A stretch of 64,000 nt of DNA, taken from Prorocentrum cordatum (Eukaryota > Sar > Dinophyceae > Prorocentrales > Prorocentraceae). Below the pieces are notes generated by a model. The model worked only from the letters and a program-made list of their open reading frames with translations. It had not been told where the DNA came from and did no database searches. Below are positions 8,160-33,270 of this stretch, piece after piece. Every line of letters starts with the position of its first letter. The stretch's first letter is position 1. Position numbers and translations under genes: made by a program. Where the stretch lies: assembly GCA_963575745.1 (NCBI GenBank), contig CAUYUJ010019364.1, forward strand, positions 117,636 through 181,635. The letters run 5' to 3'.

Positions 8160-8650
8160 GGGTTTCAGTGGGGCGTGATGTCACCGAACGGAGTGCTGGT
8201 CAGGAAAGTGTGCGTTCCCGGCTGGCGTCTTGATCAAGAGAAGTCCCTCCTTGGCACGAGCAAAGTGGGCGATCGTCACAGTTTCCGATAGCGGGCGCAT
8301 CGCTGGCTCATCGTTTGGTCCCCTGCCCCACATCATCCAGCTGGCTGGCGCAGGTGAAGTCTAAATGGCGTTGCGGTTGGCTGGCCCTGAGGAGCTGGAG
8401 GTGATCACGGACTGCAAGATGGTCGAGGATACTTGGGGGTTCGGGCCGTCCCAAAACTTGCAGGATGTTGCTGTCTCGGAGCTTTGGAAGGGGATCTTCA
8501 GGCGTGCTGAAGTGATTGGAAATGAGGGAATATAGATGGGTAGGGTTAGGTCTGATTTAACCCTCGGTCAGGCCCGTAGGCAAGGTGCAAGCGACTGGGC
8601 TTGGAGGGGGAACGAGTGGGCCGACGAGCTTGCTAAGCGCCCCGCTTAGA
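8160..8650 (+). pseudogene. RNase H domain remnant of the decayed LINE
   Basis: In one plus frame the order is WAIVTVSDSGRIAGSS, then a stop, then AGPEELEVITDCKMVEDTW, a second stop, and WAWRGNEWADELAKRP. The TDC aspartate and the GNEWADELAK block match conserved RNase H sites. The first catalytic aspartate (usually in a TDGS context) appears lost, since the corresponding stretch reads VCVPGWRLDQEKS in another frame. Two in-frame stops confirm decay. Confidence 0.7.
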
Positions 8651-14870: not shown

Positions 14871-16099
14871 AACAGAACACACTCAACCCCCATTGGCCTT
14901 ACGCAGCTCTGCGTTGACTGGGGTTGTGTGCCCCAGCCTTCGGAGAAAGCACAGCCCGCAGTCGCAGGAGTGAACTGAAGAGAGAGGTGAGTAGAAGGAA
15001 TAATCGAAGTATGAGGATGGCGATGGTGATGGTGATGGCGGTGATGAGGACGGCTGATATGAAGATCATACATCTGTTGGTGGCGATAGCGATGACCATG
15101 ATGATGACACTGACGGTGGTCATGATGATGCTACTACCGATGAAGCTACTGCTGATGATGCTGATGACGTCGGTGATGATTCCAATGGGTGCGAGTGCGC
15201 TTCTGTTCATAGCATGGCATAACATACCATCGCGTATCGTTGCCCGGCATATTATAGGGTTGCGTACCATCGCGGTGCTTAGCTCTTGGGCGCATGGGCT
15301 CTTTAGAGGGACACCGCACCTTTATGACAAACTGCACGGTGGGAATCCATGCGGCGCCAAAAGCCCTGCTGCACAGAACAATCTGGGCGATTCCAATAAC
15401 CCCCATTGCCAAATTAAGCTATTGTGTACTTCGTGCGCAGCCATGTCGGCCCAGAACGCTCAAAGAGCGAGGCGACTTGCAGGATAATTGGAGCCCGCAA
15501 GGCCAACATTGCGAAATTGTGCATTCAGTTTCGCCGTAACGTCCCTAAGTGCGTAGTAAATCTTTGACCGTCTTATGCGAGTGTGGGCCTGGTGGTGGTC
15601 CCTCTGAGGTCGTGAAGCCAAGAAGTGCAAGCGCGAATAACGTAGCGTCTCAATGCCAAGGTGGAAGAGGCAACGAGGCACTCCACTCCAACATTTCGCC
15701 CCTTCGCCCCCCCCGAGTCTCGGGGAACCACACCGCATCGGGCAACCCGACGAAGGAGCCGCAATCTGCGGGGTTGTGAAGACGAAGAGGAAGAGGACCT
15801 ATCGCCAGCGGGAACCCGGGCGCACAGCCCAAGTGCAGAAAGATGTTCGGACCATGGCCGACGAGAAATTTGAAATTACATCACCGTGGACGTACGAAAG
15901 TACACCAAGAAATTTGTATGGAATCTGAATGCGGATATGGCCTCCTGCAATCACCGTTGCCAGCAACGACCGCTTAACGTAGGACTTGGTCTTGACGAAG
16001 GTGACTATGTCACGAGGCAGACAAACAAACACGCTGCTGAGGGAGTGACAGTGGCCTACAAAGATGTAGTGGGCAAGGCAACTCAAGTTTATTTGGCCA
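14871..16099. other. mostly featureless spacer with a GAT-rich stretch
   Basis: 15010-15190 is an imperfect gatgatggtgat repeat. 15200-15270 has degenerate catggcataacat-like repeats. The rest is unique sequence in which I recognise no gene. Several open frames reach 60-90 codons, but none has conserved features. Confidence 0.5.
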
Positions 16100-16104
16100 A
16101 GCCA
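16100..16104. repeat. 5-bp target site duplication (agcca), left
   Basis: agcca immediately before the left LTR, matched by agcca at 32117-32121 just after the right LTR. Five base pairs is the usual Ty1/copia target duplication length. Confidence 0.75.
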
Positions 16105-16340
16105 AGTCTAAAGTGAACCTGGTAGGTCACATTGCATCCAATGCCACGTCGAAAGAATACGATATGGGGTGTGGATGGGTAAGATAGGAGAAGATCGATG
16201 TATCGGTCTTTCCAGCACATAGCGAATACCACGTCAGGTATCCGGGCAAATCGGGCGCGCGTGCCTTGAGCCAAAGGCAACGGCGCGCGAGTTATACTCC
16301 TGATTCTATATAGCATCTCCCGAAAAGCTACCCTTAAAGT
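16105..16340 (-). repeat. 3' LTR of the copia element (236 bp)
   Basis: Begins agtctaaagt and ends cccttaaagt on the plus strand, as does the other LTR. It holds 37 bp (16291-16327) with a TATA-like tatatag that the 5' LTR lacks. It also holds a GC-rich inverted repeat (about 16256-16290). The ends do not follow the usual TG/CA rule. No polypurine tract is obvious at the inner edge: the purine run at 16341-16360 is on the plus strand, opposite to the element sense. Confidence 0.85.
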
Positions 16341-16715
16341 CGGGAGGGGAGGAGACGGAGAGTATAGCCGCGCAGCCGCTAGGCTCTACAAAGGCCGCGC
16401 GTGCAACTGTTTGCAAGAAAACAGTGCGTACAGACTGGCCTAACACCAGACTGTAAGGCGAGTTTCCTCGCAAGGCATTTCACGCAAATGCGAGACAGCC
16501 CCTTGAATGGTAAAGGGCTATCGGCCCGGCTAGAGGTAGGCCAAACGGGCCATACCTCACCGAGCAAACGGGTATTAAGGCAAAGGGCCTGAATCACATT
16601 AAACTGGCTCGCTACCAGGCGTGAAATGTAAGGCTCGTTTCCGAGCACCTAGAAGGGCGCCTCTGTAGTAGGCGCCCAGGCTAGCAAATTGGACCGCGGG
16701 GGCAACAAGGACAGA

Positions 16716-17802
16716 CTAAAATTGATTAGACTTAGGCTTGTTTCTGTCCTCGGGACCCCGAAAGGGAACAAACTGCTTCACGTCATGCTTAAATGACTGG
16801 TTGCCTGACATCACTTCCAAAAACAGCTCCCGATCGATGCTCCCCTTTGTATGCCCATCTGCGGTCATATCTCTAGTATCACACCACTGCGCATTATGCA
16901 CTATACCTATATCCATGAGCTCACGTATCCAGCTGATATGTCCAAGCAAGGTCCGTTCCGTCGGTATCTTAAGATCCTTGCTGGATAGCGATTTAAAAAC
17001 CGACTCAGCGTCTATGGCAAGAGATATTTTAATGGCTAGGCCCCCAACTTCACGCATATCTTGTAGTTGTCGTGGAGTTAGAGCCCCTGCCTTGAGCTCG
17101 TGGAGAGTGATGAGCGTAGGGTAACACTCATCAAGGTTGCGTGCAGCTGCGAGTGCCTCCGCGGCATAGCTGGACCTCACCTGCAGTCGGTGTGATTTGC
17201 ATAGTCCGTCGCAGAGGTGAACGACGGATTTGCCTCGAGGCGAGTTTCCTCGCCGTAGTACGTTGGCCCCGCGTATGCCATAGCCCTTGGTCTCATCGCC
17301 CTCCTCCCCGGTGAGCTTCCGATACCCCGAATCACTGTGGATGTCAACTTCATTCGTCGGCTTCATCCGAGGGAAGGTGATGCGTTTCGGGCTGCTGATC
17401 AGCTTTCGCGTCACAGCATTCAGTCGTCTGACTTGTAGGTTGGTGGGCTCTTGGATTTTCTGGAGAGAGACCACGTATACCATGAGCCAGACTTGAGTAA
17501 GAAGGGCATATGCGAGGGCTCCTCGCAAGCTGACGAACATGTCGGTGATGAGTTTGGTGGCTTTGGCATCGGCCGTCGCTCCTGTAAGTTCTGGGTGTGT
17601 GATAGGACGTAGTTGTTTGATATACTCGTCCTGATCCATGATCACATCCCCTTGGTCATTCTTAGTGTAGCGAACGGCGCAGTTCGGATATGAGGTTTTG
17701 TTAAGCTTACATTTGCCAAACACCTTTTTCGACACGTTGTACATAGTCGTCTGTATTCTTCTCTAGGCCTGTCATATTAATGTCATCGACATGTTTTGCC
17801 GT
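16716..17802 (-). pseudogene. pol: copia RT motif C, connection and RNase H
   Basis: From 17802 the phase of the upstream frame gives TAKHVDDINMTG and stops within 30 codons. A one-base shift at a run of five T near 17731 leads to the frame 17744-16716. That frame carries VFGKCKLNKTSYPNCAVRY, MDQDEYIKQLRPI, then RNase H with D138 (VDIHSDSGY), E196 (YAAEALAA), D245 (LAIDAESVF) and D292/D296 (CDTRDMTADGHTKG), all the catalytic acids. It ends at 16716, about 375 bp before the 3' LTR. That untranslated stretch holds two more hairpins (16458, 16633). Confidence 0.85.
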
Positions 17803-20800
17803 TCACAAATCTTGGCTGAATTCGAATTCAGGATCATAACTTGTCGGTGTAAGGCCTATAGCTCGTGTGGTCGTACGAAGCTTGTGAGAGAACGCTCTTG
17901 GGGCGTCCTTTGTACCCGTTCCTGGCTTGAGGCACCTGAGGCAGTGTCGGCTTTCGTCATAGGATGAAAAGCCGGGCAGTGTACGAAGTACCTGGGCACT
18001 TCCCGGTGGAAGAGTGAAGCAAACCATGCGAGTTTCCTCGCCGGTGGCATGGGCAAGTTCCTCATTGGTCAAACCCGTGAGGAACGCTTTGTCGATATCC
18101 ATGGATGCTAAGATCCACTCTGGATGGCATGCCGCCTCACTTGCCAGGAGTCTCTGGGACCGCCTTCGAGCGGTTCCCGAGAAGGTTTCCACATCGAAAG
18201 CCTCAGCGTCCATAAATCCACGAAGGACAAGTCTGAGACGGATGGTTTTAACGTTCTCGGTACCTACATTCACAAACTTCCACTTATATACATATCTGGA
18301 TGTCATGATGTTGGAAGCTTTGGATAAATCATACATCTCAAAGCACCGGTTATCAAGCCAGATCTTGAGTTCAGTGTACAAAGCTTCACTAACCTCTTTC
18401 GGGTGTGCTGCTATGTCGGCTTTGGTGAGTAGGTCGTCTTCCTTGACTACCACAGCGCGTTTAGCAGCAGAGGATACGTATACTCTCATCGTTGCGACCA
18501 TATCAGTGTCGAGCTGCGCAAGTTGAGTCTGATCCAACACTACCTTTGACATTTCTGATGTAAAACATAACTCAACATAGGGACCATATTCATCACTTTC
18601 AAGAGAGTAGCCCTCGTCAGGTGCGGTTGAACATGGAGAGACTAGACAGGGCTCTTGTGGTTCAGGCTCGTCTCCGAGCGTTTCCGACAATACGATATCT
18701 TCTTCGTCCACAGATGCTGAAACCAAAACACATTGGTCGGGCAGCATGGTTGTTGGGACGCAGTAGAGATAATCGTTGGTAGTCGTGGGATGAAGGTCCA
18801 TACGTAACTCGTCGTACCACTCTTCCAGCATCATGGCTTCGATATTATGTTCCTCGTTATCTTCATAGATTGTCGACAGACGGCCTTCACTTGGCGATGA
18901 AGCACCTGGGGTGTCTGGTGGAGGCCTGCTTCCAGGCGAATCGTGTTCTCCAGACGTGGTGCCCGAGTGCTGATACTTGGCCAGGTCGTCGTGAAATCCT
19001 GAGGAAGGAACATGTGAGGTCAAGCATTGGATGAGTCTGGAATGAATGCTACCAGTGATATGAGAAATGTTCAGGCCAGTGCCCACACACTCATAATAGT
19101 GGAAGGCTGGGCTAACATCATTGTCGTAGTGGATCAGCGTAGACCCGGTGGCGTACTTTACTGCAAGTAGACATGCCACACTCTTGGCCAATCTAACTGC
19201 TACTACGTGTTCTACTCGGAAATAGTTTCGCACGAGATACTGTAGTGCAAGATGTGCACGCGGGTGAAACTTGCTGTCGTCTGAAAGATTGAGGTTTCCC
19301 TTGTAGTCTGGGATGTAGCCAAAGACTTTGGCAGGTTTCCCTGCGCCAAGGTGTGCCACATACATAAGGACTGTTTGCATGGCCATATTATCCATGCCAA
19401 GTTCCCGTGTGAGGAGACATTCAATGTATAGCGTGTGACGAGCATCAGGATACATCACAATTACCTTACGAGATCCTGCCTTGACAACGATGTGTCCTCT
19501 TTCAGGCACGTTACGGATCACAGGGAATGGGCCGTTCCAGCCTCCATGATCGTCCTTAGTGGCGGTGGGTCGATGGTAGTCGACCAGATCCCCTGCTGAG
19601 TAAAGGCGAGCACCATCTGGAGCCGTTTTAGCCCTGAGAGCACGATTTGTCTTGGCCACAGCCGTGGCTTGAGTTATAGCTTCTAGGCTAACTTCCCTCA
19701 CACGACGTTCTCGTTCATGGCCTGATGTCTCGGGTCCCTTGGGAAAGTCAAGGGTGTCGAGGTCAGGAAGAAAGGAGGGCTGGCGTCCAGTGTGTGCTTG
19801 GTATGGCGATACTCCGTTATAAAACGTGAAGGCATTGGTAACGAAGATGCCTTCAGCCAATACTCTAGTGAATACAACAGGGATGTTGTGTCTGTTCAGC
19901 TCTTCCTCAATCATGTGGATGACGCCCCTGAGAATACCGTTTCGTGACTCGATTGAAGTCGCGCGTTGGCCAGGCGCTCGGATACGGAGTGTTGTGCCCT
20001 TGTTCGCCATGATGGCCTTAGCGGTATCATTGTTCAGGGCGCCTTCTCCATCTGAGTACAAGACTTTGAAGGGCCCATGATAGGCAATCCAGCAGTAGTG
20101 GTAGGCGTCGAGTATAGTGTCGCGTTCTCTGTCGGAAATTTCTTGGCCTGCTGCCAGGCGAATACAACGATCCATAATGTGGAATATGGTTCGTTTCTTG
20201 TAAAACATGAGATCCATTTCGCCTTCGTCGAGCCAATTTCCAGGAAGGCTCACCGAAGGTATTGTTGAGTTTCCTGGATGTTCCCATGCTCTGCATTCCC
20301 GACAGGTGTCGCAAACTTCTTTGATCATATTCAGTCGAATGTTGTCCAGTCCCACTTTGTCTAGGATTCGCCTCATCTTGGGTTCCTTCGCATGATGCCA
20401 CCGTAGGTGCAGTTTACGGAGTTCCTTTTTAACGACATGAGGTTCATGACTACGGAGATTGTGAAGACTATGTTGGATATCCAATCTCGCCCAGTCGGGT
20501 AGTCGTGGAGCCCCCGAGCCGGTGGAGGCAAGAGGGTTCCTTGTAGCTCTCCGCAGTCGGTCTCCTTCGTCAACTGCATCTGGTGGGGGTGGTACGTCTT
20601 GTAGGCGACCGCGACGGGCCGCTACCTGTGGCGGTTCGCTAGAGGACGCAGAAGGCGTGTTTCCACGCTCGGGAGCGTCTCGTAGCATGTCGTAACTGCT
20701 GGCTCCAGATGTCGGATCAGCGTTCCCGAAGGATCGTGGTCGCGGTGGCCTGGCGTGTGCGCCTTGACGGCCACCTGACGCTGAAGCTTGGCCCTCACCA

Positions 20801-20838
20801 GGCTTGGGTAAGGGTTTCCACCAAGCTGGTATAGTCAT
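17803..20838 (-). CDS. pol: copia integrase and N-terminal reverse transcriptase
   Basis: Integrase: an HHCC zinc site (LHLRWHH near 144-149, CDTC at 176-179), then catalytic D209 (GEMDLMF), D263 (VLYSDGEGA) and E297 (RATSIESRNGILRG). A C-terminal basic region (DLVDYHRPTATKDDHGGWNG) follows. Then comes about 350 residues of acidic linker, and an RVT_2-type RT: YVYKWKFVN, motif A ASMDIDKAFLTG (catalytic Asp, about residue 912) and TKDAPRAFSHKL (about 980). The frame ends at TGA 17803-17805. Three codons later, in the same phase, comes HVDD, the motif-C pair, so the stop truncates RT just before its active site. Several hairpins are embedded in this frame, in more than one phase. Confidence 0.88.
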   Translation of the reverse strand: MTIPAWWKPLPKPGEGQASASGGRQGAHARPPRPRSFGNADPTSGASSYDMLRDAPERGNTPSASSSEPPQVAARRGRLQDVPPPPDAVDEGDRLRRATRNPLASTGSGAPRLPDWARLDIQHSLHNLRSHEPHVVKKELRKLHLRWHHAKEPKMRRILDKVGLDNIRLNMIKEVCDTCRECRAWEHPGNSTIPSVSLPGNWLDEGEMDLMFYKKRTIFHIMDRCIRLAAGQEISDRERDTILDAYHYCWIAYHGPFKVLYSDGEGALNNDTAKAIMANKGTTLRIRAPGQRATSIESRNGILRGVIHMIEEELNRHNIPVVFTRVLAEGIFVTNAFTFYNGVSPYQAHTGRQPSFLPDLDTLDFPKGPETSGHERERRVREVSLEAITQATAVAKTNRALRAKTAPDGARLYSAGDLVDYHRPTATKDDHGGWNGPFPVIRNVPERGHIVVKAGSRKVIVMYPDARHTLYIECLLTRELGMDNMAMQTVLMYVAHLGAGKPAKVFGYIPDYKGNLNLSDDSKFHPRAHLALQYLVRNYFRVEHVVAVRLAKSVACLLAVKYATGSTLIHYDNDVSPAFHYYECVGTGLNISHITGSIHSRLIQCLTSHVPSSGFHDDLAKYQHSGTTSGEHDSPGSRPPPDTPGASSPSEGRLSTIYEDNEEHNIEAMMLEEWYDELRMDLHPTTTNDYLYCVPTTMLPDQCVLVSASVDEEDIVLSETLGDEPEPQEPCLVSPCSTAPDEGYSLESDEYGPYVELCFTSEMSKVVLDQTQLAQLDTDMVATMRVYVSSAAKRAVVVKEDDLLTKADIAAHPKEVSEALYTELKIWLDNRCFEMYDLSKASNIMTSRYVYKWKFVNVGTENVKTIRLRLVLRGFMDAEAFDVETFSGTARRRSQRLLASEAACHPEWILASMDIDKAFLTGLTNEELAHATGEETRMVCFTLPPGSAQVLRTLPGFSSYDESRHCLRCLKPGTGTKDAPRAFSHKLRTTTRAIGLTPTSYDPEFEFSQDL

Positions 20839-20865
20839 ACCTTCGGGGTCATGATCATCTGGAAG

Positions 20866-22302
20866 TTAAAACGGTTCAGCAAAACGACATTTACCTGGTT
20901 CGGTATCGAGGTGGTTCTTAACACCTTTGCTTATCGTAAGATCCTTTTGGCATGCGGGACATGGCCAATATACAGAGATAGAATCATGATACTTACACTG
21001 CGTAGGGTCTCTGTTGTTGCTAGGACTGTCCTTTCGGACATTGTCGATGCATGTTGGGCATGTAACCACTTTTGGGATGATACGATCGCCGATGCGTCTC
21101 ATACCTTCTCCCGGTTCAGCTTGATCAAGAAGGTCAGCAAGGTAAGCATGTGCGGTACGGGTAGGCGCGTTTCCGCGCGTAGTGTCAATGGCTTTCGCCA
21201 AATAGACGGCTTCCACAAAGGCAGACTGCAGTCGTCGAGTGTATTTTTGTGCCAGTGAAAGCTCTCTGTTGCACGGTTGTGCGTGTACACGCTGACCGCT
21301 GCATTTGAGTCGCTCAAAGGGTTTAAGAATCGTCTCGTCGTTGCCGGTGATATTTGTCGGCTTCTTAATACAGTCACCAGCCGTATCTTTAAGTCCCGTC
21401 GCACACTGATCAATGCGTACGGTTGTGATGTGTGGTCGGTGGGCAAGTTTCTTCCATGTGGAAACGTCATCCACCCATATTCCTGTAGGTTGTTCGCGTA
21501 TAAACCACCTCCGTGCATCATCTTGAGTGACAGCAATTTGACCACAATAACTTATGTGTGGTAAATCTTATTTGTGGTGCTGTTCCCAAGTATTGTGATT
21601 GACTGTGTAGTTGTAGTAGGATGGTGGTCCTGTGGTGCGGCAACTGGGTTGTAGCATGGCAACTCGTGCGTAGCATATTGCGAACTAGTGGTCTACAGCC
21701 CGCTGCGCCGAGGGGTCTCCCAGGTCGACACATGTGGTCTTGTCTAAGTTGCCTCCTGAGGAAAGTCCCCTTGAGAAGGCAAGCTCTGAAATGCCACCCT
21801 CACCGCCACAAAGCTCCAACATGTCCACGCAGTTGTTATGACCATAGCATAGAATAGCGACTATGCTGTATATGTCAGCGCGTGTGTCGGGCATATATGT
21901 GGGGAGGGTAAGGAACAGGTCATTATCCTCATCAGAGCTTATCAGCTCAGTAGGGACGTCAGTGCTCCAGGTCGCCATAAGATCCTGTCCGAGTCCTGAC
22001 AAGTCGTCGCCGCAATCGTCGTTTCCGTCTTCAACGTGCTTTGTGATGCGGCGAGGCTTGATGCCTGCTTCCTTTTCGGCTTTGAGCCTTTCCTTTTGCT
22101 TGATACGCGATTCCGTAGGTAAGACTTGCTCGTCTTGTTCACCGGTCTGCGTGCCCATCGTCGTGGTTGAGTGGGTACATGCGTCAATCGCCAGAGTCGG
22201 GGGGGGGAGAGGGCAGTCATCTATGATGACGCGTCTAGGTTTCTGTGGTGATTGAGCAGGCTCGCTTCCGAACAAGACCGGTTCCTCGGGTTGCCAATAC
22301 AA
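20866..22302 (-). pseudogene. copia polyprotein segment resembling a SAM-dependent methyltransferase
   Basis: One phase runs from 22302 to 20866 with a single internal TAG (21685-21687). VDMLELCGGEGGISELAFSR followed by TTCVDLGDP resembles motifs I and II of a SAM-binding methyltransferase. Past the TAG come AMLQPSCRTTGPPSYYN, HISYCGQIAV, REQPTGIW and DQCATGLKD...KKPTNI. Then a Cys-rich stretch (CPTCIDNV, WPCPACQKD) ends at a TAA (20866). The same phase continues nine codons later into integrase, so this is one polyprotein with stops. Retrotransposons with cytosine methyltransferases are known from dinoflagellates, but this one is too divergent to assign a substrate. Confidence 0.5.
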
Positions 22303-22512
22303 CCGTGTGCTGATGTTGGCAACCCCTGCAGGTAGTGGTGCATGCCAATTATATCCTGTTGGTTGATCGGAGATCGGCTACTGCGATATCCTGGATGACC
22401 GCATTGGTGTCCATGTTAATTGTTACACGTCGGATAACATCAGACCATTTCGGTCCTCCCTTGTTGGTCGTCACGTAGTGATGGATGTTATGGTCCGTGC
22501 GTGTACAGGTGT

Positions 22513-25500
22513 TCAAATATATATAGGGACGTTTCCGTGCGTGGTGGTGCTTCCCAGGATTTTGTCGTTCAGATGACGGATGAATGTAGTACGTGTCTGA
22601 GCTCGCCATTCAGCATGCCGCACCGTTTGGCCGTACGAATCCAACACATGTTGTGGTATCGCCAATTTACATGTACATGCCCACAGCTTAGAGTTAATCG
22701 ATATTGATGTAGCTACCTGCATATAAGTACCACTCGGTGTACTGTCTTGCATATTGAACCGAATACCGAAATGACACAAACGCATCCGTATCACTGACAA
22801 CTTAAGATATTCCAGAGTATCGCGTACTGGAGATAGCTTCCAAACATATCCTGGGGGACCAAATATTGTGATTTTCATACGGAGCTTCCTGGCTTTTATC
22901 AAAAGGTTTTGGATACGTGACCAATGTGGGGCCACTCTCTTCCCTGGAGTGCGTACATACCAGTCACCCGGGGTACTAATCCATATGAGAGTGTAATCTC
23001 CACTGATCACCGCACCCAGGTAATCTGTGCCCACAATCGTCATAAGCTCATTGTGGGAAATACGGTCACAGATATAACCTCGGGTGCGGAGGTCGGCGCA
23101 AGCCTCTCTCGTATCTTCAATGACAAAAGATCTTTTGCTAAGGCAGGTTGCCCCGCTGTCCTTTTTACCCCCCGGCTTTTCGGCCATCAGGCAAGACGAC
23201 GAGGGGGCAGCGTCGCCCTGCCATCTTCCAGATAAAGAAGATGTGCCTGCAATGTCTGCCAGCATCTGGGCTTCCCTCAGATGCTGGAGCTCAGCACTGC
23301 AGCGCGCCGTGGCCTCAGAGGCGGATTGCTCCGCAGATGCTGCCAGCATGGATGGATTATCCATCAGCTGCTTCAGCGCGCCCTTGGACCTTGCGTCGCT
23401 GGCTGTCTGCAGCTCGCGGTTCGTGTACCCCGTCACTATCTTCCGGCGGGACCGTGCAGCGTCCACGGGTACACTTCCACCATGCTGGGCCAGTGTCCTG
23501 GCTACGAAGCAATCGAACGTCTCAAGATCGTCGATGCTATCGCCTTTCGTCATAGCTTTGGCGAGCGTCTCCATCAACCCCTGAGGCAGGTTTCCCTGCA
23601 ATTGTTCGCGCTCCTGCGCCAGGGTCGGCTCGCCCGCCAGCACCGTCTGAAATGACGTGCTGCTTGAGCTCGAGGCGGGTTGCCCCGCAGCTCCAAATCG
23701 ATCACGCCTGATCGACAGATGCCCTGATGGCAGCTTCGTCGTCGGCATGATCTTGGAGCCCTCGGGGAGCTCCATCTTGACCTGTCCCTTCCCAGGGAAT
23801 CTCAGCTTCTCCTGGCCTCGTTCGAGCACAATAATAGTGCGTTTGTCCTGCGTACTATCGAGGCCGAGGATGGCTGGCAGGTCTTTGCCACAGCCTGACA
23901 CAATGTTCGTCTTGTGCGAATCGAGCTGGGTCGAGCCCTGGTACTCGCAGGCAATACTGAAGGTGCCTACGGTATCCGCTGGGGCCGACCCTTCGCCCAC
24001 CCCGTTGATGTTCAAACGAGAACGGGGTTCGAACGTACAAGAACGGCCGTGCGCCTCAGCAGCCTGGACAAACTTGCGGCTCGTGTTTTCTCCCATTATG
24101 TTGATCTTCGAGCCTGCATCGATGAAGATAGAGTTTCCACCATCGCCCAAGAAAGTCTTACTCGGCTGCTTGATGTGCACTGTTTCTGAAGTGCCGGCTG
24201 TGCCGTCTGGCGGGTTTCCCCGCGATTCGGTCGTACTCCCTGGCGGGTTTCCCCGCATTGCGCTGGCACCCGGCCTGCCTTCGGCCATACGTGCCAGGTC
24301 GATGTACTGGAAGTACGACGCGTTCTGAGCATGAGCGCCACGCTCCTCCCGCCAGTTGGCATACTCATCACGTATGCTCTTATACTGCTTGCGGGTAGTG
24401 CGTCTCGTCAGCGTCAGATACGAGTGAAGGGCGATGTCCTGCAACCCCTCATTCGTGAGGTGATCCCTGTACTGCAACCACTCATCGAACTCCTCGTTCG
24501 TCGCTGTGGGATCGACGGCCCTGGCTGCTGTTGCTGCTGTTGCCACTGAGGAGTCTGAGAGGTCAAACGACGCACCCTCAGTCTCAGGATTGTCGGCATC
24601 CAGCATAAAGGTTGTGTGCGCATTATCCATTTGGGTCTGGAAATGTCGAACACGCAACTCACGCAGCTGCTCAGGGTCCAGTGCCAGCTCTGCCCCGCCC
24701 CCACTCTGGGGAGACATCTGAGGAGACACCTGTGTGGTGTTAGGCAGGTTTCCCTGCTGAAGCACCGTCATCGGGATAAGCTGATCGAAGTGTCCCGTCT
24801 CCATCGGCGGCCTCACCTCCTCCGGCAGGTTTCCCTGCTGCTGGGGCTGAGCTGTCTGCCTGTCTAGCATCCTGGCTGTCATCTCCTCCACCATGCTCCT
24901 CAACTCCCGCAGCTCCCTCGCTGCTTGCTCAGGAGCCTGAGTGTCGGAGCCGGTCCATGGGAATGATGGCGCTATGATGCCAGGCGCTCGGCTGATAGCA
25001 CATGGTGGTTGCTGAGGGTCCCCCTCGCGCTGGTTTGCAACATGGCCCACCGCATTAGAATTCCAGCACTCCTCACGGAATAAGTGATTACACCTCAAAC
25101 GGCAAACACTCTCCCTAGGGTGAAATTCTTCGAGGCATACCGCGCAGGTATCTTCCATCCCAGTGAGAACTTCCACATCTGCTGCTCTGGGATATACCCG
25201 CCGCTGTCTCTCCAAGACCGTCTCGGAGGGCATGAAGGTCGCTGGAGGATCCCCCGATGGATCCAGCACCTCCGGCACTCCGGCAGCCACAACTGGAGGA
25301 GCTGCTGGCGCGGAGGCTGTAGGCGTCGCAGCTGGCGAGTTTCCTCGCATGGGTGAGCCTCTGTTCCTCACAACCTCAAGCGCGGCTGCACGTGAATGAT
25401 CACGCACGTTCTGCACGGCCTGCCTGCGCCTAAAGCATGCCTGTTGGGTGTGGTATGTCTGCCTGATATAATCAGGCACACCTCTACTGCCAGACGATAT

Positions 25501-26734
25501 CGAATGGGCAGTAGGCTGGACAGCCACATCTGGCGTCGTCGGCGCAGGCATAAAGGCCATGTGCGGATACATGGACTGATCGCTACAGCGCACGTTGGTG
25601 AGGCTGTGGAATTGATCCGCCATCTCGCGAACAAACTTGTTCGGAACTCTGGACCCATCAGGGTACAGCGGCGGATTCATGTGTGCTGGCGGTGGTCTCT
25701 GGCCCCGGGCCATGCTCGGGTGAGCATTGAAGGCTGGGACGAAGGCTCGTTGCCGAGCAGGATCCCTTGGATTGGGACCCTCGGGCTCCCAGGACCAGGC
25801 CGGCCTCCGCCTCTGGCCACTCGGGTGAGGCAGGTTATGACTCTGCACCTGTTGCGCAGCAGCTGCCACCCTTGCACGGTAGTCTTCAGGCACACCAGCG
25901 ACAGTGGTTTGTCCAGCAAACGGTCGATGATGGCTTGGAGTGCCGGGCAGGTTTCCCTGCTGACTCGTTGGAGTGCCGGGCGGCATCATGTTCAGGAGAG
26001 CTGTACCATGCTCGGCCCTGGCCGCTGCGATCCTCTCCATGAGGGTGCCACTAGTGGCAGGGCGACCAGGAGTCCCGAACGGAGACTGTGCAGGTGGCGT
26101 CGCCATTGGGGTCATGCCCCTCGGCGTGTGCATACTAGGCGAGGGGCTACCATGCATCTGCTCGAATCGAGCAGGCTCTCCAAAGATGCGGCCGAACGTC
26201 TGCGGGTCTCCCTGCGGCTCAGGCATCTCATTTCTGAGTCCATTTATGGGCAGGTTTCCCTGCGTGGCCTGACGATTACGCGTCGCCATGGCGGACATGG
26301 CTCCCTGGCCAGCGGCCCAGGGGTCTTGCTGATATAATATGTCCGCCAATTGCTCCACCTGGATTCAGAGCGGCCGCGATCTGGTCCAGATCCGAGGTGC
26401 TGATGGCCTGCCAAGATATGGCACTAGGCCCTTGGCTTGGAGCGCGGCTTGGAGCTGCGCTTCCGGCCTCACTCTCGGTGATCATAAAGATCTGGTGGAC
26501 CTCGGGCTGGTTTCCCAGCGTGGCAGGGCTGTGGTGGTCCCCAACTTCTCTGTGAACGTAAACCATAGGAGGGTCGACGCCCTCTTGGTCGCGGGACCAC
26601 TGGTACTTGACGCTGGCACTGCCTACGTCAGCCCACCTGCCAGGGGCCGTCATTAAGGCGGTGAAGACGCGTGCCTGGCGATCACCCAGATACTCTGGAT
26701 TGCGCCACTGCTTCCCCGTGGCAAGGTCTTCCAC
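22513..26734 (-). CDS. copia polyprotein segment: RING-like finger, aspartic protease, unknown domain
   Basis: The frame 26734-26276 hands over by a single-base shift to 26358-22513 (1281 codons). RING-like finger, about residues 400-450: CAVCLEEF...VCRLRCNHLFREEC. It keeps C-x2-C and C-x-H but has Arg where a zinc-binding His is usual and ends PPCAISR instead of CPxC. Aspartic protease, about 740-870: FIDAGSKINIMG (DAG in place of DTG/DSG) and later AILGLDS. Near the C-terminus lies a domain with DYTLIWISTPGDWYVRTPGK, KITIFGPPGYVWKL and RMRLCHFGIRF, which I cannot name. It may be one half of a split methyltransferase-like fold. Pro/Gln-rich linkers separate the domains and hold many of the 14-nt hairpins. 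Confidence 0.7.
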
Positions 26735-29405
26735 GTGGGAAATGTAGTACGGTTCGATGATACCGTCATTTCCCTCGGATAAAAGGACCCCGTTATCAGA
26801 CCAACAATTTTTTTATTCCATCTTGCAAGGCCTTATGCCAGTCCACAAAGATGATGATGTTGGAATCTGGGTCCCACCCACTGTTCGCACTGCGACGGCG
26901 GACCGTCGGCACGAAGTGGATGCGTGGCCGGCCTGTCCCCTTTTTCTTCGAGTTGTGTTCGGATCGACAGGAAAGGCCATGCCACATAATACCTTCAAAG
27001 GCATTCCATCGAGTGCCATGCATGGCGACCTCGGGGTATGGGGCCGGTCTCCCGGCAGGGTTGTCGCGCAGTACAATATACTTGTACAACGACCATGGAG
27101 CCTTCAGCGTCCACGAGTGCCCATGAGAGGCACGGATGAAGATGTCGGGCTTGCCAGAATCCCGCACTAACACCTTGAACTGAAGGCGTTGTTTCTCTTC
27201 ACCGTCTGGTTCGCGGACATGAACAATCTCCATCATGATGGCAGCCAGCTGGTCCACCGTTCGGCCGTATAGGTTCGCGGTGATGACTTTGGCCTCGTCA
27301 TGTTTGGGCTTGTACCCCTTATGTCTCGTTCGTCCGTGGTGCCGCGGATACTCATTTACGAGCTCTACTAGGTTAATCCAACCATCATGATCATCGAATG
27401 TATTCAGGCTCCACACAGGATTGTGTGCTTTGTCAGGCGCGTGTCTGCATATCCTACTGAGAGCTTTACTCAGTTGCTCGAGGGTGTGATTCTTACTCGG
27501 GAAAATGTTTTCTCGCCTGCATTTTCTCACGAATTCCTCATCCACCGAGCGAATCGGTGGGGGCTTCCGCAGAGCAAGTCTATCCCTGATCACGTTCGGT
27601 CTCCCACTGGTGAAGGACGTGTCTCCTGGGTGGTGCAGCTGATCCTCGGGCGGGCTTCCCCGCGCAGGAGCCTCTGTCGCCGAAGAGGCTGCGGCTCCTG
27701 AAGAGGAGGAAGCTGCAGCGGCAGCGCCTGGCGGGTTTCCCCGCGGTGACTCTCGACTGGCGCTGCCCCTAATCGTCGGCACCCAGGTGCCCCTAGACCG
27801 AGCGCCTTCATCGGACCTGTTTGAGCGCGCCGCCACAGGCGAGGCTGGCGCAGGGGCGTGCCCTGTGCGCTCGAAAGCCTTCGCCTTACTGGCGATAGAT
27901 CCGCTGCGACTAGGCGGGCGTCTCCGTTCCTCCACAGGGTCCTGAGGTTGCTGCTTGGGATCGGGTCCTTGTGCTGGAGTTGCTACAGTCGGTGATCTCG
28001 GCGTGTTAGAGCGAGGCCCCTCCATCTGCGCATCTGACCCAGGATCCTCAGAGCGTGCTGTTGTTTTCGGTCTCACCCCCGAAGGCGACTTCGGTGCTGG
28101 AGTTTCGCTCTTAGCCTCCGGTTGGAGTGGGAGTGGGGGCTTCTTCGCCCCCTTCATGTATATCTTTTGGGAGTCCATCAGCATCTGGCGAGTTGCCTCG
28201 CGTGTGCGTTCCTCTGCTATTCGCATACGTTCCTCATCCGCCGCAACTCGCTGGGCCTTCTGGTCATCGTTGGCTGTCGGTTCTGGCCGTTGGGACTGGC
28301 TGGAAACGCCGGGCGAGTTTCCTCGCATTCCAGGAAGGTTAAAGAGCGCATCCTTTTCCTCCTGGGTCATGGGCGCCAGTCCCCTTGGAGCCGGAGGAGG
28401 CTTATCCTCCTCGGCTTTCGGCCTCGTGTGAACCGTGATCCCGAGACGACGATTGATCTCTGCGATCTCGTCTTCTGTCATCGGGATCAGCGGCGGATGA
28501 CCCTCCTTATGAGGGGTGCGGCCTCTGTTCGGGCTCAGACCCTCGTTGAGCCCTACAGGGCATCCTGGCCTGTGCTCCTGAAACGGCTCAGAGCATGGCC
28601 CACAAACTGCCTGAGGTCGGTACAGTTTGCGTGCCGCGATGACGTTACGCAGCTGCGTTCGTACTTCTTGTATTTCACCAGTACGAATGTTTGTCGCAAG
28701 CTGGTAGCCACCGCGTATGGACTTACCCTGAGCGTCTCTATAGGCGGGATTGCCCTTGCCGAAGGCCGAATGTTCCCCTTTCCGACGCCTTGGGTCATTA
28801 TAAGGAAGCAATTCGCCTCCTCGCCTAAGAGCGTGTTCCTTTGGGCCAGCTTGTCTCCACCCACGAGGAAGCCGTGCCTGTGGATGGGGCTCTTCTCTAA
28901 GGCGCGGATGGGAACGAGACCTTCCGGTATGCTCATCAGAAGAGGCTGCCGAAGCAGCCTGAGCGGGAGCCGGCGGGGGCACCTGCGGAGGCTCCTGTGC
29001 GATCCCAGGTGGATCGTCTGATAGAGGCAGGTTTCCCTGCTGGCTGGAGCCTGACGCAATTGGCGCTTGTGCCGGTGGTGATGGTGCGTCAGGCTCGTCG
29101 GGATCGAAGTCCACCCCTTCCTCACCAGTGACCTCCATCATGAGGATTGTGGCTTCGTCCTCGCGCAGCCCGCAACCATCGCCCTCTTCATCTTCTGATG
29201 TAGAACTGCCAATGACGATGGCCATCGGTGCAGCCGGGACGGGCAGGTTTCCCTGCGTAGCCGGCGTCTGAGCGTCGCTCGGCTGTCCCGGAGTAGGCGG
29301 CACGGTTGTCGGCTCAGGCTCGTTGCCGAGCACAGGCTGCCCAGCAATGTTGCGCATGGCCGTATGATTGGGCCATAGCATAGTCCCGCCGCCTGGAGAC
29401 CCCAT
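26735..29405 (-). CDS. copia polyprotein segment with a Tpt1/KptA-like RNA 2'-phosphotransferase
   Basis: Residues 1-625 of the 869-codon frame are Pro/Gln/Ser-rich linker with a helical stretch (AADEERMRIAEERTREATRQ). About 640-869 matches the Tpt1/KptA family, which removes the 2'-phosphate left by tRNA ligation, using NAD+. Visible landmarks are LSKALSRICRHAP (the catalytic Arg-His pair, 654-655), GWINLVELV, IRASHGHSW (catalytic Arg 758), AMHGTRWNAFEGIMWHGLS (the HGT site), RPRIHF (the final basic/His strand) and ALQDGIK. A run of seven T (26808-26814) shifts the phase. Immediately beyond it the alternate phase gives SDNGVLLSEG and then PYYISHVEDLA, the expected Tpt1 C-terminus. All four core residues seem present, so the domain looks catalytically plausible. 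Confidence 0.8.
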
Positions 29406-29880
29406 CCTGGCGGAGGAAGAGCCTGGCCGCGCATGGCGATGGCCCTTTCAAGGGCCTCGCGCCATCTCCCTCGGGAGTACCACACATGCCTCTGCACGTC
29501 CTCAGGGTGCACGCTGTCGATAAGAGTCAAGGCTGCCAACACTAACTCCGAGTCGTCGCAGGCGTCAGTGTCCTGCAGCATCATGTTACCAGCCTCGATG
29601 CTTTCTTGACTCTCAGGATATGCTATGGTTAATATCTCGTGCATCCTCATGAGGGTTTGCAGTAGTGTGCGTGGCCCGTACTCGCCTGGAGCAAGCGAAC
29701 CAGGGGGTATTAATGGGTCCCCTGGTATGCCCGCAACGAACGCTTGAGACTCCATTTCTATAAGTTCAGCGTGATTTCGAGGATTTGTAGGCCTGTTTCC
29801 AGGCATGAGGTCGGGTGGAGGTTGGAGGTTGCGGTCAACCTCTGAAGGCGAGGCCTCCACAGTGACTTCCTCGTCACTGC
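29406..29880 (-). pseudogene. copia acidic linker segment
   Basis: In a third phase, SSDEEVTVEASPSEVDRN, then MESQAFVAGIPGDPLIP, RTLLQTLMRMHEILTIAYP and SVHPEDVQRHVWYSRGRW, connecting nucleocapsid to the next long frame. Function unknown. Phase changes at both ends imply single-base indels. Confidence 0.5.
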
Positions 29881-30332
29881 TCGTAGGCCATGATGTTGCC
29901 TGGGTTCCCGAACATCCAGTCGAAGAAAGATAAAGGCTGGTTTCCCAGCGTTCCTTGGTCCACGGGAGTGAGCTCGTTATTGCCGACAACGAACCTGCGG
30001 ACGTGCTCGAGGTAGTGCGCGTACAGTCCATGGCCATACGCCTCGAGCTCGTCGACGTTGTCCATGCAGCTAACCCAAGTGTAAAATATCTGTTCCATGG
30101 CCTCAAAATCCTGGAGGCTCAGATATTCAATGCATGGTTCACTTGAACCAACATGGACTTCGGTCGATCTGCCCTTTCCATTTCCCTTCGCTGGACAATC
30201 TCTCACAATATGGTCGGTACTATCACGCTCATGGCACTTTAGGACCTGGCCGTCTCTACCTCGCGGGTTTTTCCGCCTACGTTTGCCTTTTGCCTGAGGT
30301 ATCTCCACGGCCTTTGCCGCGGCCTTTTCCCC
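29874..30332 (-). pseudogene. gag: copia nucleocapsid with a damaged zinc knuckle
   Basis: Continues Gag in another phase: a basic lead (KNPRGRDGQVLK), then CHERDSTDHIVRDCP. A CCHC knuckle needs Cys at the fourth position, and here it is Arg (CGT, one transition from TGT). The C-terminal part (AMEQIFYTWVSC, EAYGHGLYAHYLEHV) has protein-like composition. The frame ends at a TGA at 29874, and the next coding phase starts across it. Confidence 0.7.
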
Positions 30333-31510
30333 AAAAAAAATATCTCATCATACTGATCATCTGAGGGCTTCTGGAGGAAGGCCGTGGTGCCTCGTCCATT
30401 CAACCTACGACGACCCCGTTTGCCTTTACCTTTTCCTTTGAAACTCCTCCGTATCCTCCTCCTAACACGACGCGCTGGTTTTCGCGCGAACCTCCTCCAC
30501 CTCCGTTTGGCCTGTTGCAATAACCAAAACAAGTTTTCAGCACGCTGATTATCATTTTCCATATTCATGATATCTGACCAATCTAAAGCTTCAACACCGT
30601 CTGATGATACAGTGTCAGTGTCGGTGCCGGAGTCGAAATCATCGTCTCCCAAGTAGGTGGATACACCGTCGGTTAGGGGGTTTGATTCGCCCCATAGAGA
30701 ACGGTGTGGTTGAGGTTCTCTGGAAGGCGGGCTGGTTGCCCAGCTTGGTTGTGATCGATCCCCTGCTAGTAGAGCAGTGGATTCTCCAGGATTGTCGGCC
30801 CATATGCTTGAGGGCCCGTTTCCAGGCTGGGCTTCAGCGGTTAAGGTAGTGTAGAAATTCCCACTACCAGATCCCCTTCCCCTTCCAAATACTGATCCTA
30901 TATTGCCAGGAGACCGTTCTGATAGGTGGCCTATCGAACGCATCCTCTCCAGCAGCTCATCATACTGTTGTTGTGTTCGGGGCATTTGATGATTGAGTGG
31001 CTGTGAGAGTTGCATGGCTCGCTGGTTGCCGACGCCTAAGGCGCGGAATAGGATCGTAGTTAGTAGTTGGAAGTTGGGAAGGTCAAATCCCACCGACTGT
31101 GCCTCAAGTCGGGCCATTTCGAATCGGGTAAGGGTGACATCGATTCGTTCTCCGTGAGGCACATGAAAGTCGATGAGCTGTGTGCCGGAAGTGAGCTGGC
31201 GCTCATCTTCCAAGCGTTCGAACTTCATGCTTAGGAGGAACATGATGTAGGTCACTGGGTCGGTGTGGACCCCATCGATGTCAGCACCATAGTTTATAAT
31301 GTCAGGTGGTGCCCCCATGGCGAGTGTCCTCGCTAGGCCACCCAGGCCGCGTTGTATGGCGGCCGCTTGGGCCTGTGGCGTCATGCGTCCACTTGTGACG
31401 TTGAGCCACGCGTTGACCTCATAAACGTACTCGCGGAAAGGTACGTTGCCTTGAGGGTCCCAGTATGGGCCATGTGTTTGCCCATCGGTGCTGTTCTCTC
31501 CACGGCGCAT
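30239..31510 (-). CDS. gag: copia Gag (capsid part)
   Basis: Structural protein of the particle. The first ATG in frame is at 31510. The frame YVYEVNAWLNVTSGRMTPQA, LGGLARTLAMGAP, VTYIMFLLSMKFERL, RFEMARLEAQSVGFDLP has the spacing of copia Gag (UBN2-like) capsid helices. A basic stretch (RRWRRFARKPARRVRRRIRR, KGKGKGKRGRRR) leads toward nucleocapsid. A run of eight A (plus strand 30333-30340) shifts the phase. After it this frame reads only about 30 unrelated codons, while the true continuation lies in the frame of the zinc knuckle. Confidence 0.8.
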   Translation of the reverse strand: MRRGENSTDGQTHGPYWDPQGNVPFREYVYEVNAWLNVTSGRMTPQAQAAAIQRGLGGLARTLAMGAPPDIINYGADIDGVHTDPVTYIMFLLSMKFERLEDERQLTSGTQLIDFHVPHGERIDVTLTRFEMARLEAQSVGFDLPNFQLLTTILFRALGVGNQRAMQLSQPLNHQMPRTQQQYDELLERMRSIGHLSERSPGNIGSVFGRGRGSGSGNFYTTLTAEAQPGNGPSSIWADNPGESTALLAGDRSQPSWATSPPSREPQPHRSLWGESNPLTDGVSTYLGDDDFDSGTDTDTVSSDGVEALDWSDIMNMENDNQRAENLFWLLQQAKRRWRRFARKPARRVRRRIRRSFKGKGKGKRGRRRLNGRGTTAFLQKPSDDQYDEIFFLGKRPRQRPWRYLRQKANVGGKTREVETARS

Positions 31511-31904
31511 GCGTCCGATTGCTGCCCCCAGCGCGAACCATATGATAGCGAAGATAACCAGCCCAAGGCTGTGAATATAGGGGTGGTTATTAGGCGCGTT
31601 GCCGCGCTGGGGTAGCGCCTTGTCAAGTCTTCGAGGCGCTCTATCTGGCGGATCATTCCGCCCATGCTTCAAGTACTGCGCTTTTGGCTCGTTGCCGAGC
31701 GGTTGGTAGTAGCGCAATGATGAAGCGTATATGGTACCAATGTTGTTGTCTAGACGTCGTACCTCTCGTGTTGCTTCTTGCTCTTGGATAGATCCTCGTA
31801 AACGTACTGGGAGTGGTGGCGCAGGGTGGTAGTTGGTCACGAGGATCGTGCCGTGTAGCGTGAGGATAAGAAGGGCAAGAGCTGACCACACGAGAGTGCG
31901 GCCA
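31511..31904 (-). other. copia leader with an open, hydrophobic reading frame
   Basis: The frame of Gag stays open upstream of its first ATG (31510), through the primer site and into the LTR, without any ATG. It encodes two hydrophobic stretches (TLVWSALALLILTLHGTILV and IHSLGLVIFAIIWFALGAAI). If translated from a non-AUG start or a spliced mRNA, Gag would carry two membrane segments. If not, this is leader RNA. Two of the 14-nt hairpins lie here. Confidence 0.4.
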
Positions 31905-31916
31905 GCTCCGCTACCA
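31905..31916 (-). promoter_or_regulatory. tRNA primer binding site of the copia element
   Basis: On the minus strand TGGTAGCGGAGC directly follows the 5' LTR. Its complement ends ...GCUACCA, the 3' end expected of an initiator-Met-type tRNA, the usual copia primer. It fixes the inner LTR boundary. Confidence 0.8.
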
Positions 31917-32116
31917 AGTCTAAAGTGAGCCTGGTAGGTCACATTGCATCAAATTCCATGTCGAAGAAATACGATATGGGGTGTGGATGGGTAAGATAGG
32001 AGAAGATCGATGTATCGGTCTTTCCAGCACATAGCGAATACCACGTCAGGTATCCGGGCAAATGGGGCGCGCGTGCCTTGAGCCAAAGGCAACGGCGCGC
32101 GATCTACCCTTAAAGT
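31917..32116 (-). repeat. 5' LTR of the copia element (200 bp)
   Basis: About 96% identical to 16105-16340 over the aligned part. It has one base where the 3' LTR has 37 bp around a TATA-like motif, so the putative promoter region of this LTR is deleted (or an insertion occurred in the other copy). Confidence 0.85.
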
Positions 32117-32121
32117 AGCCA
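32117..32121. repeat. 5-bp target site duplication (agcca), right
   Basis: Matches 16100-16104. Confidence 0.75.
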
Positions 32122-33270
32122 TTGGTACCTGGCTTCCGGAACGACGCCAGAGAGAAGACTACCTGCAGTAGGTGCGTTCCACGTTGGAGAATTTACTCAA
32201 GAAGCAGATGTCCACATGTCCAACCACCGACAGAGAGTGGAGAACGCGGCGGAGTTTCAAAGTGCGCAATTTGGGCCAGGACTTTGGATGTGGTGTGACT
32301 CCCTCAGCCTACTTCCAAGGCGTGGTGAACACAATTGTGGCCGCAGAAGATATCGATAACGCCCTGACCAATAATCACGACGTGCGTCAGTCCTTGAATT
32401 GCAAGGGTGCTTGCAAAGGAACAAAGACAGACCAGAGCAATGATGACAAAGGCCCATGCGCGGACATCACGAATAGAGCTGGCACATCCCAGGGGTATGA
32501 CAGAGGGTACATTCAACAAATAAGCAACGACTGGTGGTGCAAGCCAGCGGGCAAAAGCAAGTATGGCCAAAGCACGAAGGCGAAACGCACAGGCAATGAG
32601 AAACACACGCGCTCCAAAAGAAAACAGGCACGATCAAACGCTCGGAAAGGAAACGGAGCAACTACAAGGCTGGCAATGAAATGGCGAGGCACAAAAGTGT
32701 TTTGGACAATAATTCATGGCGGTCCAGTGGCAAACTTCATAGTTCTTTTTTAGATTGGGATCACTACGCCACATGTGTATGTGTAAGACATCAAGTGCAA
32801 AACTGGTGAAAACGAATTTACACCTGAAGCGACGTTTTGTGGGGGACTGCCCCGTTTGACCTTGAGCCAATGAGCCTATAGGCAACGCTGGAGTTTCTAC
32901 TTCGGCGTCAACCCGTCTTGGGAACAATGCGAAGATGAGGACGAATATCCGTACACAAAAATTCCGTGCTAAATTGGCCGCGGCCCCAGGATGCAATTTC
33001 CCAATCTCTGACTGTCAGGCCGCTTTCAGATCCAACGTGGTTGACAATGTTTGGCAGGAAAACAGCGTGCCAAGGGACAACTCTCAAGCAAGCAGTCTTC
33101 CAGACCTAACGTTTGCACTGCGCGCAAGCTGCCATTCTCAAGTCTCCGTCGAAGGGGCAAGGGCGCATTGCCAACGGAAGCAGGTACGATACTTTGCTGA
33201 ACTAGCTGGTGAATGTTGGCTGACGTGGGCCTCGAACGGTGTTTTCTAGCATACGACCGGATGCAACATA
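32122..33270. other. unique sequence right of the copia element, no gene recognised
   Basis: Two overlapping frames look mildly protein-like: plus 32172-32753 (193 codons, Lys/Asn/Thr-rich) and minus 32304-32606 (hydrophobic). They are antisense to each other over much of their length and I cannot choose. A minus-strand stretch at 32861-32888 contains TTGGCTCAAG, the end of the dinoflagellate spliced leader. Confidence 0.35.

Follow-up and report, generated by a model that had tools for sequence, protein, structure and literature searches.

An array of short, sense-oriented, family-specific hairpins in a copia-type element of Prorocentrum cordatum

The window analyzed here is a stretch of 64,000 nucleotides (nt) from the dinoflagellate Prorocentrum cordatum, located on contig C18515 of a 4.13-Gb assembly over which all genome-wide counts were taken. 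It contains a copia-type element of approximately 16 kb (16102-32102, minus strand), the internal part of which carries dozens of copies of a short hairpin, all in one orientation and found in both coding and untranslated parts.

The Element and Its Sister Families

The element is bounded by two end repeats resembling long terminal repeats (LTRs), which are identical to each other at 182 of 189 positions (96%). Its open reading frames (ORFs) follow one another in the sense order Gag-like, Tpt1/KptA, RING match and reverse transcriptase (RT):

31914..32102 (-): 5' end repeat, LTR-like, 189 bp
30239..31942 (-): Gag-like ORF with an arginine-rich stretch at its end; 219 of 433 amino acids identical to family B
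26796..29405 (-): ORF with a Tpt1/KptA RNA 2'-phosphotransferase domain (amino acids 643-865; PF01885, E 2.9e-16, 60.5 bits, cut-off 26)
22513..26358 (-): ORF with a weak RING-finger match (PF13639, E 5.1e-5, under the curated cut-off)
17803..20838 (-): ORF with a copia-type RT (RVT_2; PF07727, E 2.8e-7, 30.8 bits, slightly under the cut-off of 31.6)
16102..16290 (-): 3' end repeat, LTR-like, 189 bp

The position of the RVT_2 RT 3' of the Gag-like ORF is a Ty1/copia trait. TG..CA termini of the end repeats were not found, nor was a 5-bp target-site duplication, looked for up to 6 bases from the element ends, and the ORFs of the window element and of family B gave no Pfam match to an integrase at E 0.01. 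The ORF at 26796-29405 had no homolog at E 0.001 among 7993 candidates scored from a set of 5.8 billion proteins, the RT ORF had no match in IMG/VR, and Rfam 15 gave no match at its gathering score across 16000-32200. A genome search with the Tpt1 domain returned 3136 first-look candidates, and the 150 that were scored are 81-100% identical, so the family of the window element (family A) probably numbers thousands of copies.

Two sister families, B (L075 and L064) and C (L076 and L065), have DNA identities to the window element of 58 and 55%, respectively, over pol. All three carry the Tpt1 domain (26811-27479, minus strand, in the window; L075:4345-5013; L076:2625-3209), those of B and C being approximately 28% identical to that of the window element and that of C being found by tblastn at E 8e-12. 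In family B the RING-finger match exceeds the Pfam cut-off, as does the RVT_2 match at 44.8 bits, and the arginine-rich stretch of the Gag-like ORF is conserved relative to A. L076 (reverse complement) 1796-3053, located upstream of the family C coding region, consists of a tandem repeat of about 53 nt with GATCC-TATA-GGATC palindromes.

The Hairpins of the Window Element

Perfect hairpins of the form GCNNG-GNNR-CNNGC number 36 in the element, all within 16458-31700 and with the G-loop always on the minus (sense) strand. Dinucleotide shuffles of the sequence (100) gave a mean of 0.46 and a maximum of 2, and for hairpins with a G..A loop the contrast is 33 observed against a shuffle mean of 0.03. 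A first-pass annotation of this DNA, which had named shuffled sequence as a test of its own claim, reported 33 perfect copies and nine stem sequences; the abundance stands and the count rises to 36, while the stem sequences number ten. The loops are GAAA (22), GCAA (7), GAGA (2), GACA (2), GAAG (2) and GCAG (1). For an unbiased set, every match to GCNNGGNNRCNNGC was taken on its fixed letters alone, with pairing ignored. The element has 40 such matches in sense, in which both free positions are paired in 36, one G-U pair is needed in two and an A-C is present in the other two; in antisense there is a single match, in agreement with the uniform orientation already noted in the annotation. The two copies that it described as pairing only through a sense G-U are likewise present (30814-30827 and 23143-23156).

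A C stands directly 3' of 35 of the 36 hairpins, a G directly 5' of only two of them (P 0.001), and a sixth Watson-Crick pair is possible in one of the 36 helices. The module is thus one of 15 nt, comprising five pairs and an unpaired 3' C. As the annotation had it, hairpins are absent from the LTR-like repeats (zero in both), and the remainder of the window holds only four perfect GCNNG stems, on the plus strand and with the unrelated loops ACGA (three) and GGTG. The ACGA cases are GCGCG-ACGA-CGCGC at 34609, 36816 and 37130 (+) and probably represent a local repeat.

The hairpins discussed below are as follows, single site numbers (e.g., site 29949) being the higher coordinate:

16458..16471 (-): GCGAG-GAAA, 3' of the last listed ORF
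16633..16646 (-): GCTCG-GAAA, 3' of the last listed ORF
17240..17253 (-): GCGAG-GAAA; GCGTG/CACGC here in B and C
18028..18041 (-): GCGAG-GAAA, within the RT coding region, next base A; missing without insertion or deletion (indel) in B and C
18666..18679 (-): GCTCG-GAGA
18924..18937 (-): GCCTG-GAAG
19331..19344 (-): GCAGG-GAAA; double synonymous change in B
20146..20159 (-): GCCTG-GCAG; B pairs with two G-U
20655..20668 (-): GCGTG-GAAA
21165..21178 (-): GCGCG-GAAA
23143..23156 (-): GCGGG-GCAA-CCTGC, one sense G-U pair
23321..23334 (-): GCGGA-GCAA-TCCGC, A-U closing pair (37th hairpin)
23489..23502 (-): GCCAG-GACA
23586..23599 (-): GCAGG-GAAA
23675..23688 (-): GCGGG-GCAA
24210..24223 (-): GCGGG-GAAA
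24243..24256 (-): GCGGG-GAAA
24744..24757 (-): GCAGG-GAAA
24825..24838 (-): GCAGG-GAAA
25335..25348 (-): GCGAG-GAAA
25745..25758 (-): GCTCG-GCAA
25947..25960 (-): GCAGG-GAAA
26202..26215 (-): imperfect, GCAGG-GAGA-CCCGC, A-C pair; perfect GCGGG-GAGA-CCCGC in 6 of 8 further copies
26250..26263 (-): GCAGG-GAAA
26506..26519 (-): GCTGG-GAAA
27043..27056 (-): GCCGG-GAGA, within the Tpt1 coding region
27650..27663 (-): GCGGG-GAAG; copies differ in the loop
27731..27744 (-): GCGGG-GAAA
28188..28201 (-): GCGAG-GCAA
28313..28326 (-): GCGAG-GAAA; GCGGG/CCCGC in L040 and L041
29027..29040 (-): GCAGG-GAAA
29243..29256 (-): GCAGG-GAAA
29318..29331 (-): GCTCG-GCAA; broken in L039
29791..29804 (-): GCCTG-GAAA
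29936..29949 (-): GCTGG-GAAA; GCTCG/CGAGC in L039
30731..30744 (-): GCTGG-GCAA
30814..30827 (-): GCCTG-GAAA-CGGGC, one sense G-U pair
31320..31333 (-): GCGAG-GACA, within the gag coding region; missing without indel in B
31594..31607 (-): GCGCG-GCAA
31687..31700 (-): GCTCG-GCAA, nearest to the 5' repeat

Folded in a context of 134 nt, the 36 perfect hairpins have a mean pair probability of 0.83 in sense vs. 0.62 in antisense, with values above 0.5 for 30 of them in sense and 23 in antisense. A hairpin-free gap of about 2 kb lies at 21178-23143 in family A; family B has a hairpin at 21903.

Conservation and Covariation within Family A

A 3.6-kb segment was aligned between the window and its relatives, and counts use the window plus 28 copies; L010, which is the window itself, was omitted from the 30-row alignment, and L009, identical to the window, from the identity, pair-cell and third-position counts. 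Over 11 sites, column identity in the 15-nt unit is 0.965-0.997 at positions 1-6 and 10-15, at least 0.978 at all of these except position 10 (the 3' closing C), and 0.944-0.968 at the three inner loop bases. Directly before the unit it is 0.937 and directly after it 0.909, with 0.944 for the whole segment. Sister copies therefore do not show the free loss of pairing that the annotation had set against its own proposal. At third codon positions (sites 26519, which is in no listed ORF, and 26215 omitted) identity reaches 0.990 in stems (32 columns), compared with 0.905 outside hairpins (1028 columns) and 0.895 in loops (nine columns). Of 1419 pair cells at 10 sites (26215 left out), 1386 are Watson-Crick, 14 G-U, six A-C and 13 other, and in eight further copies a perfect hairpin occupies 75 of 80 site-copy cells at ten sites. 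RNA editing of the loops was considered and rejected, as A-to-G differences (35 of 747 loop A cells) equal the background of 0.048 and A-to-C/T differences (2 of 747) fall below it.

Compensatory change is seen when the window is compared with four more distant copies (L039-L042, 80-86% identical to it). Site 29949 reads GCTGG/CCAGC in four of these five rows and GCTCG/CGAGC in one, and site 28326 reads GCGAG/CTCGC in three and GCGGG/CCCGC in two. Pairing also fails in places: in L039 site 29331 is broken, 26215 is missing and 26263 has an altered loop; L040 has one mismatch at 26519, L041 one each at 26263 and 28201, and in both 26215 is imperfect. L042 has a sense G-U pair at 25758, and the window itself is without the hairpin at 30276 that three relatives retain. 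The covariation score is partly circular because its alignment rows were selected mostly by pairing, and the fixed-letter count given above is its unbiased version.

Hairpins of Families B and C

With G-U pairs allowed, sense and antisense hairpins number 39 and 1 in family A, 49 and 5 in family B and 17 and 3 in family C, the B and C sequences extending past the element ends or into undelimited flanks; composition shuffles average 0.5-0.7 for the three, with a maximum of 4. Each family favors a form of its own. Family A has A as the third loop base in 35 of its 39 hairpins and family B has C there in 39 of 49, such that A is characterized by a GNAA loop with the unpaired 3' C and B by a GNCA loop; in family C, 12 of 17 hairpins have G-U as third pair and GCAA is the commonest loop. 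The next base 3' is C for 38 of the 39 hairpins of A, for 12 of the 49 of B and for 3 of the 17 of C. Genome-wide, 16925 matches to the B-type hairpin GCGGGGNCACCCGC were counted (control 995).

Orthologous sites covary between families as well. Site 19344 is GCAGG/CCTGC in A, GCGGG/CCCGC in B and GCGGG/CCTGC in C, the double change between A and B being synonymous with Ala-Gly-Lys-Pro-Ala retained, and site 17253 is GCGAG/CTCGC in A and GCGTG/CACGC in B and C. Other loci are nearly devoid of such structures: one isolated GNNR hairpin (L054), on the strand opposite to the match, was found in a total of 16 other copia-type RT loci of 3.5-3.7 kb, against six in a comparable span of family A; eight loci around scattered pattern matches have two, and the four best Tpt1 matches have one.

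RNA or DNA

Genome-wide, 7340 occurrences of the sense G-U form GCGGGGNAACCTGC (control 250) stand against 491 of the mirror A-C form GCAGGGNAACCCGC (control 168), both counts being inflated by copying of the element and not representing independent events. Among the sites inspected, an A-C pair is a standing form at only one (26215, family A), and the G-U pair is common in family C, which favors a structure in the sense RNA over a DNA cruciform, insofar as sequence can distinguish the two. The two sense G-U copies of the window, from which the annotation took its view that G-U pairs point to RNA, are confirmed, but the A-C mismatch at 26202-26215 runs against the trend.

Reading Frame

Among 38 listed family A hairpins, including the off-type 23334 and 19668 (both phase 0), 20 are in codon phase 2, eight in phase 0 and five in phase 1; two lie in overlapping frames and three in no listed frame. 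All three phases and sequence outside ORFs are thus represented, as first described. In family B, 32 of 34 hairpins of L075 are in phase 0, and 14 hairpins within one open frame of L064 are distributed 7, 4 and 3 over phases 0, 1 and 2. A hairpin of L077 (family C) apparently in two codon phases was not used, its reading frame not being established. Since the phase bias puts the free loop base where the code tolerates change, protein tolerance appears to shape where hairpins are placed. The first-pass statement that protein selection cannot explain the hairpins is in this respect too strong: it is excluded as the sole cause, but the bias shows its influence on placement.

Origin of the Hairpins

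Five sites align reliably between A and B (31333, 20159, 19344, 18041 and 17253), and none has an indel inside the hairpin. Family C aligns at 20159, 19344, 18041 and 17253, with a small gap downstream at 20159; alignment scores were too low for 30827, 29331, 27056, 23156, 23334 and 23502 (A vs. B and C) and for 31333 (A vs. C), which were not counted. Sites 18041 and 31333 have the hairpin in A and not in B, with length unchanged. Within family A, no copy lacks exactly the unit at any of 10 sites in 28 copies, and in the seven site-copy cells with 1-15 gapped columns the deletion ends do not match the unit ends. The absence of indels and the constant length where hairpins come and go indicate that, within conserved coding regions, they are evidently gained or lost via point changes. 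Some family B hairpins have in addition been multiplied by tandem duplication, in units 18, 24 or 30 nt apart, and the copies on C1, C2, C83 and C159 have 2, 3, 3 and 4 perfect members, respectively, in the 30-nt array. In L075, hairpins in 30- and 24-nt tandem units lie at 2911-2984 and 8254-8339.

Other Features of the Window

Outside the element, an ORF at 43374-44651 (-) resembles a tRNA-dihydrouridine synthase, and ORFs at 9678-12257 (-) and 52644-53888 (+) resemble non-LTR reverse transcriptases, all judged by eye.

Interpretation

These observations describe an RNA-level, mainly sense-strand, family-specific hairpin array maintained under selection in both coding and untranslated parts. 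The hairpins are best regarded as selected sense-RNA structures and not as mobile palindromes or peptide repeats alone. The proposal that they serve the element as RNA tags, one of two offered in the first-pass annotation, finds support in their sense orientation, covariation at orthologous sites, constraint on synonymous positions, the sense G-U pairs of family C and the family-specific loops. We consider it somewhat short of an even chance, with a probability of roughly 45%, that they are cis-acting recognition sites of the element's own full-length RNA, read by the Gag-like protein for self-recognition and packaging. Selection on the sense RNA keeps some 17 to 49 GNNA-type hairpins of 5 bp per 15-16 kb; the Gag-like protein may bind them cooperatively through its arginine-rich C-terminal stretch, much as lambda N binds boxB; and the hairpins would act as dispersed sites of self-recognition and packaging, their family-specific form separating the RNAs of sister families. 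Since families within a single genome differ in their code, the reader is presumably encoded by the element, and the arginine-rich end of the Gag-like protein is the best candidate. More tentative is the suggestion that each family might carry a private hairpin code, of about 15-50 repeats per RNA, read by its own co-evolving Gag and amounting to orthogonal self/non-self labeling.

Several results weigh against recognition by the Gag-like protein or against selection on the hairpins. No Pfam match was obtained for the Gag-like ORF, and a fold of 201 of its amino acids from the lone sequence was poor (predicted local distance difference test, pLDDT, 41) and was discarded. In the one family C copy examined, hairpins are much scarcer than in A or B, and a gag match was not obtained. 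Hairpin spacing is indistinguishable from random, with no regularity, and six of the 36 hairpins are not the favored local fold. Identity in the flanks runs from 0.89 to 0.997 column by column, with some columns equaling the stems; within family A the excess of G-U over A-C is modest, only 14 to 6; and site 26215 stands as an A-C pair, unchanged in 0.71 of copies. In family B, where 32 of 34 hairpins in the 5' 10 kb share a codon phase, these hairpins are not independent, owing to the shared phase and to the origin of some by tandem duplication.

The hairpins could instead be sites for host factors acting in export, stability, localization or translation, or a self-mark against a host nuclease or editing enzyme. 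Their RNA-level nature and their presence throughout the internal part, also past the last ORF, would suit such a role, but the loops differ among families of one genome, which fits an element-encoded reader better, and 16 other copia-type RT loci share only the one match on the opposite strand. Editing is further disfavored by the background rate of A-to-G in the loops, and we regard a host reader as unlikely.

A role in RNA processing or repair, with the hairpins being cut, protected or rejoined and Tpt1/KptA removing the junction 2'-phosphate so that reverse transcription can pass, is suggested by the Tpt1 domain in all three families. Tpt1 takes 2'-phosphates off ligated RNA, and its IRAxxGHS-like and HGT motifs are presumably catalytic; should cutting and rejoining of the RNA take place, removal of the phosphate would be important for reverse transcription. 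Both motifs align to the solved tRNA 2'-phosphotransferase 1, 7yw3_A (E 3.6e-4). There is, however, no sign of cleavage, the hairpins being read through in family B open frames of 2915 and 1781 amino acids; the identity of Tpt1 from one family to another is only about 28%; and some forty cut sites per genomic RNA would presumably be costly. This role seems improbable.

The second proposal of the first-pass annotation, a tiny mobile palindrome inserting in one orientation, like Rickettsia palindromic elements and mitochondrial byps, accords with the near-identical repeated units, with a 15-nt length that preserves frame and with local tandem multiplication in B. It is strongly disfavored by the absence of indels at the five A/B sites and of any copy missing exactly the unit, and a decaying insert would not give compensatory changes or sense G-U pairs. 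Selection on a repeated peptide (xGNxP in A, AG[PST]PA in B) with the palindrome as by-product would explain the phase bias of A and of L075; as sole cause it is refuted by hairpins in every phase and outside listed ORFs in A, by the three phases used in the L064 frame, by stem third positions that are nearly fixed and by covariation of codons 1 and 4 across many residues, and very little probability remains to it. Template switching between the arms, known generally for quasi-palindromes, could preserve complementarity without function, but it is the least credible explanation, as it would account neither for the fixed loop G and A, outer G-C/C-G pairs and 3' C nor for the restriction of G-U to one strand and of the hairpins to one orientation.

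Relation to Known Systems

Lambda N provides a known case of an arginine-rich peptide binding a GNRA fold. Like the lambda N/boxB pair, the element combines a GC-rich 5-bp stem and a GNRA-type loop with an arginine-rich segment from the same element. BoxB has a pentaloop, occurs at few sites and functions in antitermination, whereas the hairpins of the element have tetraloops and occur at dozens of sites. Lambda N/boxB recognition appears in PMC8633718 as a reference entry.

Reading of dispersed loops by the coat protein has been published as a model for several RNA viruses and for hepatitis B virus (HBV), as far as the parts consulted show (PMC6281560, PMC7612645), and dispersed packaging signals of MS2 are also treated in PMC8472981. 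In these systems, as in the element, many short stem-loops share a loop motif; one type of coat protein is the proposed reader, and in HBV the motif is RGAG in loops (PMC6281560, PMC7612645). The element likewise shows many stem-loops with a shared motif and RNA-level conservation against synonymous change. The viral signals vary around a short motif, whereas the element repeats a near-identical module of 14-15 nt some 17-49 times, its stems covary openly and its sister families differ, and the protein reader is here only predicted. Rickettsia palindromic elements and the palindromes of Magnusiomyces mitochondria also place hairpins within protein-coding genes, but the portions of PMC6649704 consulted describe them as insertion elements, those of Rickettsia losing repeat identity over time, unlike the gain and loss by substitution, with covariation, seen here. 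Ty1, another LTR retrotransposon, has cis-acting packaging and dimer structures in its RNA; the parts of PMC5454406 consulted place these at the 5' end and mention no repeated module, and the hairpins of the element are spread throughout. No account of such hairpins in retrotransposons was found among the matches listed (titles and abstract starts) in one open-access library. De Mendoza et al. (PMC5890265) treat other dinoflagellate retroelements, and the words 'hairpin' and 'phosphotransferase' do not occur in the text available to us, nor does 'hairpin' in that of a dinoflagellate genome review (PMC11453091).

If the idea of dispersed packaging signals holds for retrotransposons, the element would be an unusually clear natural case. 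To our knowledge, it is poorly understood how an LTR retrotransposon picks out its own RNA when thousands of sister copies are present. The hairpins offer a candidate signal for this selection that is legible in the sequence, occurs dozens of times per element, exists in three natural versions, one per family, and is of a size that a peptide and a 15-nt RNA would suffice to test. Should the reader instead be Tpt1 or a host factor, they would belong to an RNA-marking system not known so far. If the private code is real, each family would package its own RNA from among thousands of sister copies.

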